From NCBI GenBank assembly GCA_029210545.1, contig JARGFV010000027.1, positions 1 through 27,095 on the forward strand: DNA of 27,095 nucleotides, given 5' to 3'. Both the position numbers and the translations under genes were made by a program. Position 1 is the first letter of the stretch; each line of letters begins with the position of its first letter. Positions 2,843 to 14,242 of the stretch are shown piece by piece. This DNA comes from a bacterium. Its GTDB lineage: Bacteria; BMS3Abin14. Below the pieces are notes generated by a model that ran no database searches, was not told where the DNA came from, and saw only the letters and a program-made list of their open reading frames with translations.

Positions 2843-3097
2843 TCTTGTCTGGCTATTCAGGTACTGCAGGAAGTAGGCGCTTGCCCCGAGGCCGTTGATG
2901 GCGTCGGCCAGGGCCTTGCCCCTGTCGCTTGTTACGTCGGTGACGATGGTCAGCGGCTTGGTCCTTCCGATGAGGGCGATGAGCTCGGTGGGAGGCACCT
3001 CACGGTAGATCCTGGTGAGGTAAAGGGCCACCTTCATCTCGACATCCTTGCTGGGCACTGACCGTAGAACAACCGTTCCTCTCCCTGTCTCAGCCAT
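2837..3097 (-). CDS. Small protein resembling the L7/L12 C-terminal fold
   Basis: An 86-aa protein. ATG 3097 is preferred over the upstream extension because GAAAGGGGTG lies just before it. Residues about 21-75 follow the pattern of the ribosomal protein L7/L12 C-terminal domain: KVALYLTRIYRE, then LIALIGRTKPLTI, then a helix ending LADAINGLGASAYF, which parallels KVAVIK..., LVESAP... and L..AGA in bL12. It lacks the L7/L12 N-terminal dimerisation region, so it is not the ribosomal stalk protein. L7/L12-CTD-like modules occur in stand-alone proteins of unknown role. The gene is alone on this strand and ends in the shared terminator. The family assignment is by eye and tentative. Confidence 0.55.
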   Translation of the reverse strand: MAETGRGTVVLRSVPSKDVEMKVALYLTRIYREVPPTELIALIGRTKPLTIVTDVTSDRGKALADAINGLGASAYFLQYLNSQTRH

Positions 3098-3412
3098 CTT
3101 GCGCACCCCTTTCTTTTCACTCCCCTTTCGACATCTTCCGGCGAAGTTCAAGAAGGTTCCGACTGGACAACTTCATCTGTTCTACCCGATGATAGGCATA
3201 AAGCGTGCCAGTGAACATATGGCAATATTGGCATTTTTATGCCATTTTTTACCCGTACATACCCGGTACTATGAAATTATTTCACGGATAGGGGGGAAAT
3301 CACACGTGATCGCGTGGAGTGTACGAACGTGGATGCCGAAAGGTCTGACAAACACGTGCCTTACGCACCTACGGACTCTCAGTTTCCAGTTTCTGGTTCC
3401 AGACACCAGATA
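3098..3412. other. Gene-free spacer with a TGGCA/TGCCA cluster
   Basis: No credible gene is seen here. An AT-rich part holds TGCCA (3206-3210), TGGCA (3220-3224), TGGCA (3229-3233) and TGCCA (3240-3244), two successive inverted pairs. The rest includes CACGTG-type words near 3302-3357 and, at 3380-3412, the short-word sequence TTTCCAGTTTCTGGTTCCAG. It should hold the promoter for the minus-strand small gene, but no convincing -35/-10 pair was identified. Confidence 0.4.
3229..3250 (+). terminator. Weak hairpin plus T-run
   Basis: TGGCAT (3229-3234), loop TTTT, ATGCCA (3239-3244), then TTTTTT (3245-3250). The 6-bp stem with a U-tract is terminator-like on the plus strand. No plus-strand gene ends just upstream, so an operator-type role for the TGGCA pairs is equally possible. 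Confidence 0.3.
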
Positions 3413-3471
3413 CTAGGAGTCTGTCGGAGAACCTGCCTGTCTGGTTAGACAGGCAGGGCACAGACTCCTAG
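3413..3471 (+). repeat. Hairpin A repeat, solo copy
   Basis: A 59-bp double hairpin. The outer arms CTAGGAGTCTGT (3413-3424) and ACAGACTCCTAG (3460-3471) are perfect. The inner arms CCTGCCTGTCT (3432-3442) and AGACAGGCAGG (3447-3457) enclose GGTT. The asymmetric internal loop is CGGAGAA on the left and GC on the right. The element sits at the 3' end of the Nudix gene and its right CTAG provides that gene's stop codon. Near-identical copies are at 11079-11135 and 13968-14026, with diverged copies at 5816 and 6041. Confidence 0.85.
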
Positions 3472-3875
3472 ATACTGGAGCCGCGCTTTTTGAAATAGTG
3501 CTCCAATATTTCCTTATGATCGAAGGCGATCTTCGCCGGCAGGGTGTCGGCCGTGAACACCCCGGCCCCGGCAGCGTCATCGGCAGCCGCCGGCTGTCCC
3601 CCGGCTGTCCCGACAAACACGGTGGATATGGTATGCAGCCGCGGATCCCGGGAAGGGTCGGAGTACACACCCAGGAGACGGGTCAGGATCACGTCGAGGC
3701 CCGTCTCTTCTTTCGCTTCGCGCACGGCCGCCGCCTCGACGGTCTCCCCCAGGTCCACGAACCCCCCGGGGATGGCCCAACCGTGGGGCGGATTTTTCCT
3801 CTCGATGAGCACGATGCCGCCCTCGACCTCGATGATGATGTCAACTGTGGGGACAGGATTTTTGTGTTCGCTCAT
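3468..3875 (-). CDS. Nudix hydrolase
   Basis: A 135-aa Nudix-fold pyrophosphohydrolase, cytosolic, cleaving a nucleoside diphosphate linked to another moiety. The Nudix box is intact at residues 38-60: G38, E44, R52-E53, E56-E57, G59. The following region resembles ADP-ribose pyrophosphatase/MutT-like members, but the substrate cannot be assigned. ATG 3875 is chosen because GGGAG lies 4-8 nt upstream; an in-frame GTG at 3890 is possible. The stop TAG lies in the right arm of the hairpin A repeat, so the C-terminus (GSSI) was probably set by that insertion and may be truncated. It stands alone between two spacer regions. Confidence 0.88.
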
Positions 3876-4109
3876 GGCACTCCCGTTCACAATTCAAGAT
3901 CAAACCCGGCCTCTCGCAGAGACGCAGAGAACGCAGGGGGAATTCAAAACTCAACTGAAAACAGCTCCAAGGAAAACAAATCCATCGTTTTTCCTCGGTG
4001 GTCCCCTGTGGTTAGACCTGGGAGAGGTCGTCTCCGTGGCCCTCCGTGTTATGGCTCTGATGTCTGAGATCGCTTCGCCCAACAGTCAGCTCGCGATGAC
4101 AAGCTCCTG
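3876..4109. other. Spacer with short-word repeat
   Basis: A 234-bp spacer with no recognised gene. GCAGAGACGCAGAGAACGCAG near 3916-3936 is one of the window's degenerate short-word stretches. The remainder has no clear promoter or terminator. Confidence 0.35.
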
Positions 4110-5815: not shown

Positions 5816-5867
5816 CTAGGAGCCTGTCGGAGAACCTCCCATTTTCTTAGCAGGGAGGGCACAGGCT
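5816..5867 (+). repeat. Hairpin A repeat, diverged copy upstream of trmJ
   Basis: It starts CTAGGAGCCTGTCGGAGAACC and ends with the inner arm CAGGGAGGG then CACAGGCTAG. The outer stem AGCCTGT/ACAGGCT is kept; the terminal bases of the right arm are shortened. It directly abuts an inverted hairpin B at 5868. Together with the inverted hairpin A at 6041-6076 it makes 5816-6076 a 261-bp unit with inverted ends. Confidence 0.75.
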
Positions 5868-6076
5868 AGCAGCGTGTCGGAAAACCTCTTGACACGCTGC
5901 TGTAAGTTTTTCGGAAAGCTCTTTTTGGGGTCTTTTCTTGAAAACAAGAGCAGTAAACCGGTGAATAACTCCAGTGAATTACCAAATGTGCCATATATTT
6001 GTTCTTTTCGGTCTAAATGCTGCTTCCGTAAAACTATATCCAGGAGCCTGCATGGGGTTCTCCGACAGGCTCCTAG
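5868..6076 (-). mobile_element. MITE-like element, hairpin A/B family, inverted copy
   Basis: Read on the minus strand the order is hairpin A (6076 to 6041, CTAGGAGCCTGTCGG...), spacer GATATA, inner repeat GTTTTACGGAAGC (6034 to 6022), a non-coding body of about 100 bp, inner repeat GCTTTCCGAAAAAC (5919 to 5906), and hairpin B (5901 to 5868), whose arms AGCAGCGTGTC/GACACGCTGCT are perfect. The body shows no transposase similarity, so mobilisation would be in trans. It lies between the cytochrome gene and trmJ. Confidence 0.65.
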
Positions 6077-9478: not shown

Positions 9479-10471
9479 ATGATCATGGCTGGGGACATCG
9501 GCGCGACAAAGACCATCCTGGCTCTTTTCAACAAGGAAACCGGTCCCGGAAAAACTATAGCTGAAGCCGTTTTCCCCAGCGGCGATTATCCGGGCCTGGA
9601 GGAGATAGCCTCCGAGTTCCTGTCCCACGCCGCCCACGGAATCCCGACGGCAGCCTGCTTCGGTGTCGCGGGGCCGGTTGTCAACGGACAGGCAAACATC
9701 ACCAACCTTTCCTGGAATGTGTCCGTAACCAGGCTGCGCTCCATTCTGGGGATCCCGCACATATCCCTCATCAACGATGTCCAGGCTGTCGGGTACTCTA
9801 TCGGGTCCCTGGATGCGACAGACCTGAAGACGATCAATGAGGGCAGGCCTGTCAAGGGCGGCGCCAAGGCGATCATCGCGCCCGGGACAGGCCTCGGGGA
9901 AGCGATCCTTTTGTGGGACGGACGCGGTTACCGATGCTATCCTACTGAGGGCAGCCACGCGGATTTTGCCCCGGCGGATGAGCAGCAGGTTGGACTGCTC
10001 AGGCATGTGGGACGGAAATTCGGACATGTCAGCTGGGAGCGCGTATGTTCAGGGATCGGTATCTCCAACCTTTACGATTACCTGAAGGCTACAGGTGATT
10101 ATGAGGAACCGGACTGGTTAAAGGAAAAACTTGCGGTTGCGATCGATCCGGTACCCGAGATCTTCCGTGGAGCCATGGAAGCAGACCCTCCTGCAGAGGT
10201 CTGCAGGACCACCGTGAAGATGTTCGTATCCATCCTTGGAGCCGAGGCCGGGAACCTCGCCCTGAAAACACTTGCAACCGGGGGGATCTATATCGGCGGA
10301 GGCATCGCGCCAAGGGTCCTGGATCTCATCATCGACGGGACGTTTATGGAGTCGTTCACCAACAAGGGCCGGCTGGCCGGCCTGCTGCGCGACATTCCCG
10401 TACGCATCGTGATGAACCCAAGGGCTGCCCTTATGGGCGCAGCGGTGGTAGGATTGGGGATGGAGGGATAG
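9479..10471 (+). CDS. glk: Glucokinase (glk type)
   Basis: A 330-aa ASKHA-fold sugar kinase of the non-ROK bacterial glucokinase family, ATP + glucose to glucose 6-phosphate, cytosolic. The phosphate-1 loop is GDIGATKT (5-12); the catalytic Asp is D100 in LINDVQAVGYS; the phosphate-2 region is APGTGLGEA (134-142); EGSHADFAP (157-165) is the family signature before the sugar pocket. The C-terminal GGIYIGGGIAPR is also typical. Length matches the family (about 320-340). ATG 9479 follows AAGGAGGAGCAGCAA, a strong ribosome binding site. It is divergent from the secreted-protein gene, so the 194-bp gap should hold both promoters. A DUF427 gene follows 40 bp later. Confidence 0.9.
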   Translation: MIMAGDIGATKTILALFNKETGPGKTIAEAVFPSGDYPGLEEIASEFLSHAAHGIPTAACFGVAGPVVNGQANITNLSWNVSVTRLRSILGIPHISLINDVQAVGYSIGSLDATDLKTINEGRPVKGGAKAIIAPGTGLGEAILLWDGRGYRCYPTEGSHADFAPADEQQVGLLRHVGRKFGHVSWERVCSGIGISNLYDYLKATGDYEEPDWLKEKLAVAIDPVPEIFRGAMEADPPAEVCRTTVKMFVSILGAEAGNLALKTLATGGIYIGGGIAPRVLDLIIDGTFMESFTNKGRLAGLLRDIPVRIVMNPRAALMGAAVVGLGMEG

Positions 10472-10511: not shown

Positions 10512-10796
10512 ATGCCCAAGGCCGTCTTTAAAAATACGACCATAGCCCAGAGCGACGACACCACCCTTCTCGAGGGGAACCACTACTTCCCGCCCGAGAC
10601 GGTGAACCGGGAATATCTGGTGGCAAGCGACACCCGTACCGTCTGCCCGTGGAAAGGGACAGCCAGTTATTACCATGTCGTCGTGGGCGGCGAGATCGAT
10701 GAGGATGCCGCCTGGTATTACCCGGAACCTTCCGCTCCTGCCGTCTCCATCAAGGATCACGTGGCTTTTTGTGGGAAAGTGGAGGTTATTCCGTAG
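10512..10796 (+). CDS. DUF427 domain protein
   Basis: A 94-aa single-domain protein of the DUF427 family, recognised by the order AQSDDTTLLEGNHYFPPE, CPWKGTASYYHVVVGG, DAAWYYPEPSAPAVSIKDHVAF. These compact beta proteins occur in many bacteria and are of unproven function. No signal peptide is present. AGGAG lies 8 nt before ATG 10512. It is probably co-transcribed with glucokinase; the 40-bp gap holds the short-word repeat TGTTCACTGTTCGCTG. Confidence in the family is high, in the role nil. Confidence 0.85.
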   Translation: MPKAVFKNTTIAQSDDTTLLEGNHYFPPETVNREYLVASDTRTVCPWKGTASYYHVVVGGEIDEDAAWYYPEPSAPAVSIKDHVAFCGKVEVIP

Positions 10797-11078
10797 GAAT
10801 TTCGAAACGCGGGGACGCGGGTATGGCGAGACGCGGAGGAGAGAACAGACTCAGCGTACAGCCTTTTCACCGTGTCTCCGTGTCAGGCGGTTGTCTCCGG
10901 ATTCTCATGGTCTTTGTGTCTCACCTGAAATCTCAAACTCATCCCTCCCAGTTAAAAACATGACTTTATTACCGATCCACACCTCCCTTCCCAACCAGCC
11001 GGCAGCGGCAATTATCTACCGGGACCTGACGGGGACCTCACAACTGGACGGTCTGAGGGTCATCAAACGGGAAGCCAC
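10797..11078. other. Spacer with degenerate inverted words
   Basis: A gene-free 282 bp. Words such as ACGCGGGGACGCGG and GAGACGCGGAGG (10806-10842) face CCGTGTCTCCGTGT (10870-10883), giving a loose inverted arrangement. A 40-codon frame from ATG 10961 runs into a TAG supplied by hairpin A at 11080; it has no ribosome binding site and no recognised family. Nothing else is seen. Confidence 0.35.
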
Positions 11079-11662
11079 CTAGGAGTCTGTCGGAGAACCT
11101 CCCTGTTTTTTAACAGGGAGGGCACAGACTCCTAGATATATTTTGTCGGCCCATGGTACTATGATGTCATGGAAAAACATATAATTCTGAAGAAGTTAGC
11201 CCTCAGAATTATATGTCTTGAACGGATTTACGCATCCTATGACGGTTCGGCCGGCGGGCAGCCACCCTACGATCCCCAGATGATGGTGAGCTTGCTGCTT
11301 TACGCCTACTGCGTGGGGATCGTTTCCTCGCGCAAGGTTGAACAGGCGACCTGGCATTCGGTTCCTTTTCGGGTTCTTGCCGGTAACCGTCATCCGGACC
11401 ATGACACGATCGCGGATTTCCGTAAGCGTCATTTAAAACCCGAAATCCACGCTATAATAACCTTCCGGGTGGATTTCGGGTGTGGAACCCGCGATTAGCC
11501 TGAAAAGGCCAACAGGCCACTTTCCGCCATCAAATCCGGACTATTTCCCGTTTTTCAGGCGCATGGTCCGGAAAATATATGATCCAGGTCCTAAAAAAGA
11601 CCACGGCCGACAAACTTTCTAGTCACGCCGACGGCGTGATCGGGGTTTTCCGACACGCTGCC
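11079..11662 (+). mobile_element. Internally deleted IS1182-like element framed by hairpins A and B
   Basis: Hairpin A (11079-11135, outer arms CTAGGAGTCTGT/ACAGACTCCTAG, inner arms around TTTTTTAA) is followed by the inner inverted repeat TTTGTCGGCC (11142-11151), a transposase 5' fragment, and the opposite repeat GGCCGACAAA (11605-11614). A hairpin B remnant follows: a replacement mini-hairpin TCACGCC/GGCGTGA at 11623-11639, then GGGGTTTTCCGACACGCTGCC to 11662. At about 470 bp between inner repeats the element is far too short for a full IS, so it is non-autonomous. The order of modules is the same as at 5868-6076 and 13968-14203. Confidence 0.7.
11169..11498 (+). pseudogene. Transposase N-terminal fragment (IS1182-like, DUF772 region)
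   Basis: An 109-codon reading frame. Residues about 22-90 match the N-terminal region of IS1182-type transposases: YASYDGSAGGQPPYDPQMMVSLLLYAYCVGIVSSRKVEQA, VPFRVLAGNRHPDHDTIADFRKRHL. The DDE catalytic core is absent, because the frame diverges right after FRKRHL and stops 25 codons later, so this is a 3'-deleted remnant. Near the break is a 13-bp inverted repeat, ACCCGAAATCCAC (11438-11450) and GTGGATTTCGGGT (11469-11481). A second perfect 13-bp hairpin covers codons 4-16 (11178-11190 with 11203-11215). It cannot encode an active transposase. Confidence 0.8.
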
Positions 11663-11675
11663 AGAGAGATCTTTA

Positions 11676-12245
11676 GTGAACCGCTCCCCGGCCTAAAGGC
11701 CGGGGCTTCAAGCCTTCTGGCATGATCTGTCATGGCAAAGGAGTTTACCGTTGTTGCTGGCGTATATACTTTCGAACAACCTCTTCATTCGCCACGCCAA
11801 CCGTCTCGGCAAAGTAGCCATCCGCCCAAAAACTATCGCCCCTCAGAAACTCTTCCAGCTCAGGGAACTCTTTCCGGATCACTCTGCTGCTTCCACCCTT
11901 CAATATCTGAACCGCTCCGCCCACACTATCGCTCGCGTTCAACTGGATCACCACATGCACGTGATCAGTTTGAATACTCAGTTCGCTGATCCACCACCGA
12001 TTGACACGACACGCCTCATACAGCAATTGTCGCAGGCGGATGGCTACTTTGCCTCTAAGCACCCGCTTCCGATATTTCGGTATCCATACCAGGTGGTACA
12101 GAAGCCGATGTTTCGTGTGACTACCTGTGCGATATCTGGCCATAACCAGATCATGCCGAAATTTCCTCCGCTCCGCCAACTAACGCTGACTGCGCTACGG
12201 GCGGCCATTCATCCCCGGGCTTGAAAGCCCGGGGTTTTCTGGCCG
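11676..12245 (-). mobile_element. IS200-type insertion sequence
   Basis: A single-gene element of the IS200/IS605 family. It carries subterminal hairpins characteristic of the family: CCCCGGCCT/AGGCCGGGG (11686-11705) at one side and CCCCGGGCTT/AAGCCCGGGG (12213-12234) at the other, and no inverted terminal repeats. The only gene is tnpA on the minus strand; there is no tnpB. Exact ends cannot be fixed without an empty site. It sits next to the hairpin B remnant of the deleted IS1182-like element. Confidence 0.8.
11745..12143 (-). CDS. tnpA: IS200/IS605-family transposase TnpA (Y1 HUH)
   Basis: A 132-aa single-strand DNA transposase. From ATG 12143 the protein begins MARYRTGSHTKHRLLYHLVW, the typical IS200 N-terminus. 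The HUH motif is H61-V-H63 in TDHVHVVIQ, and the catalytic tyrosine is Y126 in VRKYIRQQ; all active-site residues are present, so it may be functional. An earlier in-frame TTG at 12179 would add 12 residues, but the IS200 family start is normally at MxxYR. The length is within the usual 130-155 aa. It would excise and insert the element through the flanking hairpins. Confidence 0.88.
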   Translation of the reverse strand: MARYRTGSHTKHRLLYHLVWIPKYRKRVLRGKVAIRLRQLLYEACRVNRWWISELSIQTDHVHVVIQLNASDSVGGAVQILKGGSSRVIRKEFPELEEFLRGDSFWADGYFAETVGVANEEVVRKYIRQQQR

Positions 12246-12285
12246 ATTTTATAAATTTCATTATATCAGACCGAACTCTCTCCCA

Positions 12286-13113
12286 TTACTCAACTCTGAG
12301 TTGAGTTGAGTGCTTCGACCCATCGTCCAACAATACATTGATTTCCCAGGTTCCCTCCTCCAGATCGCTGATGTCCATAAGATAGGTGTATTGTCCTTTG
12401 TCCGGATGGTATTGAAACAGGTTTTCACGGTACTGCATGGAGCCTGATTGGGCATCCAGAGGATTACCTGCAGGTTTGTCGACCACCATACGCTGCAACT
12501 GCAATCTGGCATGGACGTCATGAGCTGGTTCGTCATTTTGCCGTGTGAGGACGAAGCAGATTGAAATCTCCCCCGTTGCGCGGTTGGTAGAGTATCCGCC
12601 GTCAGGCTGAATGTTTCTGAATCCGCGGAATTGATAGGTAGCAGGTAGAACCGCACTGTTCTCCACATTTGTTTTGTCAAAACTGAGCAGGTAGGAATAG
12701 TTCATCCCGGCAAACATGAAGCCTTCAACCGTCTTGGTCAGCATCTTCCTTCCGCTGCCCTTGAATTCAATTTCAAGCGAGAAGGGAAAATCCCGTTGGC
12801 CGGTGATCTCCAGCCTGTATCGTCCCGAATCCGGTTTTTTCAAATAGAGAACGTACCAAGGCTGCGGATCTTCGACACTTTCATTGAGCACGTTCGAACC
12901 GGGGATCTCCCGGAGCCTGATACCTTTGACAGGATCCCAGCCACTCCGACGACCTTCAGCGTCCACAAGGATGAAACCAAGATCTGGACTCGGGTCAGGG
13001 TAGATGATGACAGAGCTCATGTCCCGCTGCTGGTCAGAATGCGCCTGTTCATGACAGTAAAAAACAGCTGTTATAACTAAGAGCCCCAGAAGGAAAATCC
13101 GCATTCTCATCAT
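12286..13113 (-). CDS. Secreted PxKF-like domain protein
   Basis: A 275-aa exported protein. Residues about 1-26 are a signal peptide (MRMRIFLLGLLVITAVFYC). A middle region (about 45-150) is beta-rich and includes DPQPWYVLYLKKPDSGRYRLEITG, like extracellular beta-sandwich proteins. The C-terminal 120 residues, starting LPATYQFRGF and ending EGTWEINVLLDDGSKHSTQLRVE, parallel the adjacent truncated gene and resemble the PxKF-type domain, although the PVKF core reads ISICFVL here. ATG 13113 follows GGGGGTTAGTTTTTG. It starts 16 bp after the upstream PxKF gene stop, a tandem duplicate arrangement. A cell-surface role is likely but unspecified. Its 3' side is next to the IS200 element. Confidence 0.7.
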   Translation of the reverse strand: MMRMRIFLLGLLVITAVFYCHEQAHSDQQRDMSSVIIYPDPSPDLGFILVDAEGRRSGWDPVKGIRLREIPGSNVLNESVEDPQPWYVLYLKKPDSGRYRLEITGQRDFPFSLEIEFKGSGRKMLTKTVEGFMFAGMNYSYLLSFDKTNVENSAVLPATYQFRGFRNIQPDGGYSTNRATGEISICFVLTRQNDEPAHDVHARLQLQRMVVDKPAGNPLDAQSGSMQYRENLFQYHPDKGQYTYLMDISDLEEGTWEINVLLDDGSKHSTQLRVE

Positions 13114-13129
13114 CAAAAACTAACCCCCA

Positions 13130-13495
13130 TCATTTGAGGCCAAATTGCATCTCTTTCTGCGAACCGTCGTCCAGAACAACCTGTAATTCCCAGGTTCCCG
13201 TAGTCAAATCTTTCGTGGACAGATTGTATATGTATTGATCAGCCTCCTGATCATATCGGAAAACACCGTCATCATGCACAGCACCAGAGGCAACCGGATC
13301 AATGGGATTCCCTATAGGGATGGCATTATCCATCTGTTGGAGTGTTAGTCTGGCAATGATGTCGTCGTGAGGAGTACCATCATTCCTCGCTACCCTGAAT
13401 TTTACAGGAATTGTCCGGTTTAATTTGAAGATTTTCAGGCTTTCCGACGACAGCGGAGGCTCGAAACCACCGAAGGAGTAGGTTGTCGGTATCAC
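13130..13495 (-). pseudogene. 5'-truncated PxKF-domain gene
   Basis: Its C-terminal 120 residues are preserved: IPTTYSFGGFE, then NRTIPVKFRVARNDGTPHDD, IARLTLQQMDNAIPIGNPIDP, GVFRYDQEADQYIYNL and TGTWELQVVLDDGSQ. This is a good PxKF-type domain, clearly paralogous to the C-terminus of the next gene. Upstream of about 13495 the homology stops, and the DNA instead encodes the end of a transposase on the other strand. The reading frame stays open to 13591 but that extension (FEKQTSLTPSVFAFRR) is antisense transposase, and no signal peptide remains. The gene therefore appears decapitated by an insertion or recombination. Confidence 0.7.
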
Positions 13496-13778
13496 AAAGG
13501 ATAATCTTCGGAACGCGAAGACGGATGGCGTTAAGGATGTCTGTTTTTCGAAGAAGCGGGGCCTCAGCGTCCAGGACATGGTCAAGAGCAACTGGGTTTA
13601 CAGAAGGCTTCGGAACTTTCGCGCGGGGATTGAAGCGAACATATCCGTACTCAAGCGTTCCTATGGCCTTTACCGCTGCAACTGGAAAGGCTGGGCAGGT
13701 TTCCAGCAGTACGTATGGAGTTCGGTTGTCTCGTACAATCTGCTGGTGATGGCCAGACATAGTCTGGCCTCGGCTTAG
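13482..13778 (+). pseudogene. Transposase C-terminal fragment (DDE, IS5/IS1182-like)
   Basis: A 98-codon open stretch from 13482 to TAG 13778, without a start codon of its own. It reads ITKDNLRNAKTDGVKDVCF, then WVYRRLRNFRAGIEANIS, then LKRSYGLYRCNWKGWAG and YVWSSVVSYNLLVMARHSLA. FRAGIEA.IS.LKR.YGL.RC..KG is the conserved block holding the last catalytic Glu (IEA) of DDE transposases of the IS5/IS1182/ISNCY type. The 5' part is missing. It is fused head-on to the truncated PxKF gene; the joint lies within about 13482-13500. Confidence 0.8.
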
Positions 13779-13967
13779 AAAAGCGGAGGAGTTCAAAAAA
13801 CCCGCGTTAAGGGGCGAGTCTGTCCCGATGAAGTAGTTTCCTTCATTTAAAGCCGAGGTTGGCACCAATTTAATCGTCCCCTTAATTGCGAGGTCGCGCC
13901 GGCATCGTCATGGAGTGAATTGTCACTTATTCGTTGATAAAATCCGGGCTTTTCGGATGCGCTCGAG
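13779..13967. other. Spacer between transposase fragment and hairpin A
   Basis: A 189-bp stretch without a gene. It may be the right end of the element whose transposase fragment precedes it. ATCCGGGCTTTTCGGAT (13941-13957) is a short hairpin. No terminal inverted repeat partner was found in the window. Confidence 0.3.
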
Positions 13968-14203
13968 CTAGGAGTCTGTCGGAGAACCTACCTGTCTGGT
14001 AAGACAGGCAGGGCACAGACTCCTAGCTGGAGTTTGTCGGAACATATTTTTTGAGTCTTTTTTTATATAATACCTTGTGTTAACAATAACTTGCAATCTT
14101 CACCCGCAACTTTATCACCTGTTGATTCGAAGGCAAAAAGCATTAGAAAAGTCGTTCCGACAAACTTTTACGCAGCGTGTCAGGGTTTTCCGACACGCTG
14201 CCA
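13968..14203 (+). mobile_element. MITE-like element, hairpin A/B family, best-preserved copy
   Basis: Hairpin A (13968-14026, outer arms CTAGGAGTCTGT/ACAGACTCCTAG, inner arms CCTGTCT...AGACAGG) is followed after CTGGA by GTTTGTCGGAAC (14032-14043). Then come a 110-bp AT-rich non-coding body and the exact complement GTTCCGACAAAC (14154-14165), followed by hairpin B (GCAGCGTGTC 14172-14181 with GACACGCTGC 14192-14201). The whole is about 236 bp, has no ORF, and ends just before the terminator upstream of the response-regulator gene. Confidence 0.75.
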
Positions 14204-14242
14204 GGGCCGGGGATGAGATGAGAGTTTCTTTTCCCTGTGTCA

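Follow-up and report, generated by a model that had tools for sequence, protein, structure and literature searches.

Hairpin-tipped elements in a BMS3Abin14 genome as a probable branch of the IS1182 insertion sequence family with miniature derivatives

Among the described insertion sequences (ISs) of the IS1182 family, ISPsy36 uses the target GGCC (PMC8027508) and ISPse1 makes a 4-bp duplication (PMC3281130), while miniature inverted-repeat transposable elements (MITEs) of 160-169 bp in Methanosarcina acetivorans are attributed in a table to the IS1182 element ISMac2 (PMC3852290). A four-base target and MITEs are thus to be expected of this family. IS1272 of Staphylococcus, which has the same type of transposase, is directed at stem-loops, which it removes, and does not duplicate its target (PMC5678879, PMC4923244). 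Here we describe a family of hairpin-bearing elements in a 27,095-nt contig (JARGFV010000027.1, hereafter the window) of a BMS3Abin14 bacterium (GCA_029210545.1), in which five such features, all of one family, were found. We consider it probable, at roughly 0.8, that these loci are copies of an IS1182-family element and of MITEs derived from it, with the transposase acting on the outer arms of the hairpins and with CTAG duplicated on insertion. The family shares with ISPsy36 and ISPse1 a four-base target, although the word differs from that of ISPsy36 and the passages on these two elements mention no hairpin ends; the ISMac2 MITEs are also IS1182-derived, but the table that lists them describes no hairpin-tipped architecture. 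With IS1272 it has in common the transposase family and the involvement of palindromes, but here the hairpins belong to the element itself and CTAG is duplicated. The literature searched, which did not include most subscription journals or ISfinder, yielded no account of IS1182 ends that are tipped with hairpins and have a second, inner pair of repeats.

The 237-bp miniature element of the window is made up of a 59-nt hairpin A (13968-14026, plus strand), an inner left repeat AGTTTGTCGGAA (14031-14042, plus) that is preceded by CTGG after the hairpin, a non-coding body of 112 nt (14043-14154, no strand assigned), the same inner repeat in inverse orientation (14155-14166, minus) and a 33-nt hairpin B with its outer arm (14172-14204, minus), the element ending at 14204. 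The same order is found in an IS remnant that begins with a 57-nt hairpin A of type A1 (11079-11135, plus), whose CTAG foot doubles as the TAG stop of the open reading frame (ORF) at 10675-11082. This hairpin is followed by the inner left repeat ATTTTGTCGGCC (11140-11151, plus), by a 109-aa transposase remnant (11169-11498, plus) and by the inner right repeat (11605-11616, minus), which reads AGTTTGTCGGCC on the minus strand. Besides the outer arm CTGGCAGCGTGTCGGAAAACC, the right end of the remnant (11619-11664, minus) has an inner CTAG and a short stem TCACGCCGACGGCGTGA of unrelated sequence, so that hairpin B is here either decayed or of a variant type. A third element, of 211 bp, lies inverted at 5866-6076, with hairpin B at 5866-5900 (plus), the B-side inner repeat AGTTTTTCGGAA at 5905-5916 (plus), the A-side inner repeat AGTTTTACGGAA at 6024-6035 (minus) and a hairpin A of the 37-nt type at 6040-6076 (minus). 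It abuts a solo hairpin A of type A' (5816-5869, plus), a type known from solo copies only, and the CTAG at 5866-5869 is common to both. Another solo hairpin A, of type A2 (3413-3471, plus), has both of its CTAG feet as stop codons of converging ORFs (3048-3416 on the plus strand and a NUDIX ORF, 3468-3890, on the minus strand).

An earlier sequence-only reading of the window had described three loci (the solo copy at 3413-3471 is additional to them) with the order hairpin A, inner repeat, body, opposing inner repeat, hairpin B. This order was borne out at all three, far above chance according to motif counts and folding scores, but several details were not. The A end of the inverted element is a single 37-nt hairpin, and the double hairpin assigned to that locus is the separate solo copy at 5816-5869; the inner repeats of the inverted element, reported as TTTGTCGG, actually read TTTTACGG and TTTTTCGG. 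At 11079-11664, the GCAGCGTGTC arm has no inverted partner and only the short TCACGCCGACGGCGTGA stem stands at the B end, where a hairpin had been described.

The parent of the family is, judging from its encoded protein and its ends, an IS1182-family insertion sequence. The domain encoded by the window fragment is the DUF772 of IS1182/IS5 transposases (Pfam, 58.5 bits), and the fragment, which covers the N-terminal part only, scored 74 bits against the IS1182 profile NF033551, below its cut-off of 270; a shorter derivative with the same altered start was found in another contig of the host (C119). The full-length copy that the sequence-only reading had recommended looking for was present in a relative of the same taxonomic family but another genus (G003, locus L112), in which an open frame of 464 aa lies between a hairpin B and a 37-nt hairpin A. 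Its product contains DUF772 and DDE_Tnp_1 and passes the NCBIfam cut-off for IS1182 with 343.6 bits. The same genome harbours a 168-bp MITE, read in four complete copies, that has the same layout around a body of its own, with CTAG at each of the four hairpin feet. Hairpin A was present in 6 of the 12 genomes of the phylum examined. The earlier suggestion of a design outside the known kinds is not supported, given this transposase between the same hairpins, the canonical outer arms and the duplicated CTAG; a protection function, for which no test was made, was not found either.

In this regard, named public genomes contain the outer-arm motif CTAGSAGYSTGTCGGARAACC in at least 119 stretches, the matches listed including WOR-3, Myxococcales, Chloroflexota, Krumholzibacteriota, Zixiibacteriota and Planctomycetota, among others, and four viral contigs contain it too. 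Full-length IS1182 elements of 1.5-1.7 kb without hairpins carry it at both tips, with CTAG outside; compared with their 21-bp terminal repeats, the outer arm of A is identical and that of B differs by one base. These hairpin-less elements, with ends CTAGGAGYSTGTCGGARAACC (from a Syntrophaceae metagenome-assembled genome (MAG), Archangium lansinium, a WOR-3 MAG, Phycisphaerae and others), encode transposases 44-64% identical to the G003 protein over the matched part. They share with the present family the outer repeats and the CTAG at both tips but, unlike it, have one simple terminal repeat per end, and neither hairpins nor an inner repeat pair were seen in them, which agrees with what had been said of ordinary IS1182 elements from the window alone. 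In two relatives that are more distant, the tips are simple CTAGGAGCCTGTCCGAGTAA. In about 20 of the 127 matches listed, the tip recurs nearby in inverse orientation with up to two mismatches, in some at hairpin distance and in others about 100 bp off, which suggests that hairpin-tipped ends are a minority design within a common family. Compact inverted tip copies were found in Myxococcales MAGs, SZUA-204, CSMAG_1715 and PFL40, the last with the same hairpin A followed by TTTGTCGGAAG, and Myxococcales assemblies contain perfect 39-bp palindromes of the outer-arm motif.

Empty sites in related genomes, also recommended by the sequence-only reading, were found with a single CTAG. At the rpsE-rpmD junction, the host has a 162-bp element at the CTAG that holds the rpsE stop codon, flanked by CTAG and CTGG; four other genomes (G003, G011, G004 and G009) have one CTAG and no element there, and in a fifth (G008) the junction is occupied by a 213-bp member of the family that has CTAG at either end. 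Similarly, the element at C117:1949 stands at the CTAG end of a conserved, apparently coding stretch, for which genome G001 has one CTAG, and the copy at C5:34566 is nested in an older relic of the family whose undamaged relatives have a single CTAG or a close variant. These three lines agree in indicating that the target is CTAG with a 4-bp duplication, in keeping with the IS1182 family, as empty sites have one CTAG and filled sites have it on both sides. The Archangium copy, considered for a reading-frame test of the duplication, gave no sign of lying within a gene. In the window CTAG is about five times rarer than expected from base composition (19 occurrences against about 101), and ten of the 19 are within family elements. 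In several copies a foot coincides with the stop codon of an open frame, as at 11079 and at either end of 3413-3471, but the excess is modest (23 against 18 and 9 in the other frames, of 98 sides). As CTAG can overlie TAG stops and is restored by duplication, the elements may accumulate in a compact genome with little damage. Elements of another kind, with ends CCCGSAYTATTCAYGAKG, abut CTAG feet of hairpins A and B at C36 (about 9510-9612), C2:53479, C11:39673, C68:13845, C89:7344 and C25:8096 of the host genome (G000), and different mobile elements therefore seem to share these CTAG sites; the CCCGSAYTATTCAYGAKG-ended ones are perhaps IS1380-like.

The distribution of the family in the host genome (2.72 Mb, 241 contigs) was mapped with two covariance models, one for hairpin A and one for hairpin B plus inner repeat. 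The motif GTCGGAGAACCT occurs 35 times compared with none for its reversed control, and GTTTGTCGGAA 34 times compared with two; 30 of these 34 are inside elements found by the models, and three of the remaining four are in apparent decayed remains with a part-hairpin or B-like sequence. Hairpins A and B face inward at 700 bp or less from each other in 28 pairs, with a total length of 106-586 bp, and CTAG is found at the A foot in 23, at the B foot in 19 and at both in 17 of them, the rest being mostly one change off. The main subfamilies are those of 211 bp (ten paired copies, plus 5866-6076 of the window) and 235-239 bp (five copies); these two, together with a 170-bp subfamily and the 168-bp one of G003, are short, non-coding and multicopy, and have the terminal repeats and target of the parent IS, as befits MITEs. 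Exceptional arrangements are few, namely a reversed hairpin A in contig C6 and stacks with a common CTAG in C20 and in the window; C46, C41 and C131 gave weak or distant matches. As many contigs break off within elements, additional copies are cut. No match to an element of the family was found among plasmid records. The expectation that hairpins and inner repeats always go together held for the inner repeats, nearly all of which come with hairpins, and paired A and B face inward, but it failed for hairpin A, which stands alone with unrelated DNA on both sides at about 20 places. One such solo copy (C4:4612-4648, L152) lies within a longer palindrome (AATTTAAATGGG ... CCCATTTAAATT), the stem being of unusual length, and seems to follow directly on a gene. 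Another (C40:11048-11106, L021) lies between non-coding DNA and a stretch that resembles, by eye, the central part of a malic enzyme gene, and thus possibly stands at a rearrangement junction.

The inner repeat duplicates the terminal repeat: in the best subfamilies AGTTTGTCGGAA agrees with it at 12 of 13 bases, and its distance from the A foot is a constant 3 nt. The left and right inner repeats have changed together in four lineages. The pair is TTTGTCGGAA in the group of 237 bp and TTTTTCGGAA in that of 211 bp, TTTTTCGAAA in C115, TTTGTCGGCC in the group with the transposase and TTTGCCGGAA in G003. The outer pair TGTCGG is constant throughout, C115 being the sole lineage with joint change of the outer pair, further in (GGACTATCC / GGACTTTACC). 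The proposal of one modular element family with two concentric inverted repeats was upheld, since the outer CTAGSAGYSTGTCGGARAACC arms pair with each other and the inner AGTTTGTCGGAA pair alters in step on both sides. In the Sleeping Beauty transposon, a eukaryotic Tc1/mariner element, the inverted repeat/direct repeat (IR/DR) ends each have two transposase sites in direct order; the present ends resemble these in their direct-order site pairs, but spacing and family are unrelated and the likeness is only an analogy. Furthermore, the long hairpin A comes with two types of loop, TCCCTG…CAGGGA and TGCCTGTCTGGTTAGACAGGCA, that are each shared by different bodies, the transposase-bearing one included. 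Type A' occurs at six places, always solo and never with an inner repeat, and the body at C40:18973 is chimaeric. We read this as a sign that end palindromes may be exchanged between copies and that the smallest of them may spread independently.

The main hairpins, folded as DNA, lie 4 to 8 standard deviations below shuffled sequence, with z of -5.3 (13968), -7.5 (11079) and -8.1 (3413) for copies of A and -4.5 and -4.7 for copies of B (14155 and 5866). In contrast, the B end of the remnant (11605-11664) folds no better than shuffles (z -1.1), which suggests that this locus has lost hairpin B or carries a variant of it. As single strands, both miniature elements form three stems in a row, hairpin A, a body stem closed by the inner repeats and hairpin B, with z of -8.5 and -6.1. 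In 21 copies of the 37-nt hairpin A, 6 of the 12 stem pairs have changes on both sides, and the covariation score was reached by none of 500 shuffles; these counts are inflated by relatedness, but the signal was lost when the partners were slid, a control that preserves relatedness. Regarding a structured-RNA family, the window has no Rfam match.

According to the mechanism we propose, the DDE transposase would work on the 21-bp outer arms of hairpin A, upstream of its gene, and of hairpin B, downstream of it, and the element would be inserted at CTAG with duplication of this word. The fixed A-B order, the canonical outer ends, the parent transposase in a relative and the single CTAG of empty sites are the observations behind this. 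At each end, part of the terminal repeat has been added in inverse orientation, which yields a palindrome bounded by CTAG, and a direct copy has been added further in, which gives the two concentric inverted repeats. The inner pair may be a second, coadapted transposase-binding pair that aids end assembly. The small palindromes may be minimal elements moved in trans by the same transposase, which would explain the solo A copies, and exchange of end palindromes between copies would give the family its modular look. The mobility of solo hairpins is something we infer. More tentatively, and at rather less than even odds, the 37-59-bp end palindromes could themselves be mobile, jumping alone, stacking at CTAG and acting as exchangeable end cassettes, repeatedly yielding composite elements with nested, separately evolving sites. 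Several points weigh against parts of this scheme. Transposition is deduced from sequence, and searches of the host genome for an intact transposase found fragments only, although contig breaks may hide one, many contigs ending inside these repeats. A single ancient insertion, since lost in other genomes, may lie behind the rpsE copies of the two genera. The inner repeats may be no more than passive remains, deletions instead of jumps could have left the solo hairpins behind, and the chimaeric body at C40:18973 suggests that hairpin swapping may arise from homologous recombination. Even so, the family is largely explained as an IS1182-type element with elaborated ends plus its miniature offspring.

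Deletion is another explanation of the solo copies, which we regard as somewhat unlikely: solo A hairpins would not move but would be footprints of a deletion that ran from the inner CTAG of A to the outer one of B, an event that has CTAG at both breakpoints and would leave exactly a solo copy. It would, however, need the loss of every A' parent copy to account for six A' hairpins, all solo, and the perfect 39-bp palindromes of the same motif in Myxococcales assemblies also speak against it; the dispersal of A' fits less easily with deletion, although this falls short of proving that A' spread independently. It is also unlikely, and more clearly so, that the hairpins persist as transcription terminators of use to the host or to the element, for example by shielding the transposase gene or ending converging genes. 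The strong stems, the copies at gene stops and the one between converging ORFs at 3413-3471 would suit this function, but a U-tract is not consistently present at the ends, terminator-like matches within elements are limited to a single weak one, and CTAG targeting alone accounts for the stop-codon positions. As an idea, the inner repeats might be the ancestral tips and the hairpins later captures; it is the outer arms, not the inner ones, that match the canonical ends and keep the left/right differences.

That hairpins A and B are host palindromes (terminators or repetitive extragenic palindromic (REP)-like sequences) used as targets, into which an IS1182-type element inserts or which it replaces, appears very improbable. 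IS1272 does target stem-loops, without sequence specificity and with removal of the whole or part, and some copies here adjoin other palindromes (5816/5866, C5:34566 and C40:18973). But the arms of the hairpins are terminal repeats that belong to the element itself, A and B never exchange ends, empty sites reveal CTAG duplication instead of hairpin loss, and the flanks of 53 insertion points are less structured, and not richer in hairpins, than DNA further off. Membership in an IS1272-like, hairpin-targeting group was rejected on the same grounds, no hairpin enrichment at the 53 joined sites and a duplicated CTAG. Scarcely credible is a movement of REP or REPIN-type palindromes by a tyrosine (Y1) transposase of the REP-associated (RAYT) kind, with the IS1182 gene a bystander. 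The palindromes are short, intergenic and numerous, and a Y1 gene (11745-12179) lies beside one copy, but this gene scores as IS200/IS605 (NF033573, 128.9 bits) and reaches only 27.7 bits against the REP-transposase cut-off of 80, while the arms of the hairpins correspond to the ends of IS1182 elements and insertion duplicates CTAG. The REP/REPIN system was rejected on the profile score of this neighbouring gene, no genome-wide RAYT search having been made.

Additionally, some neighbouring features were recorded. The IS200/IS605-type Y1 gene beside the IS1182 remnant is on the minus strand, with palindromes at about 11685-11710 and 12213-12234. An open stretch on the plus strand at 13483-13779, with ...LKRSYGLYRCNWKGWAGFQQYVWSSVVSYNLLVMARHSLA, resembles by eye the C-terminal end of a DDE transposase, as a relic of another element; Pfam gave no match for it. 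A second abundant palindromic repeat (TTGATGGACYCGCAAAAAGTCC ... GGACTTTTTGCG...TCTATCAA), which has several successive stems, interrupts bodies of hairpin-tipped MITEs at C1:23181-23369, C39 (about 10850-11020) and C10:1-160 of the host genome (L005, L012 and L064); the repeat is also present in relatives (L112 and L305).

IS1182 elements are widespread and their biochemistry is little known, IS1272 having given a hint that transposases of this family handle stem-loops. Here a branch of the family appears to have stem-loops built into both ends, together with two nested inverted repeats, each evolving as a matched pair of its own. The change of the inner pair while the outer one is kept amounts to a natural experiment on the sites that the transposase reads. 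If the end palindromes do move by themselves, they would be among the smallest self-standing transposable elements, and the family offers a candidate route by which minimal palindromes may spread through intergenic DNA without RAYT transposases.

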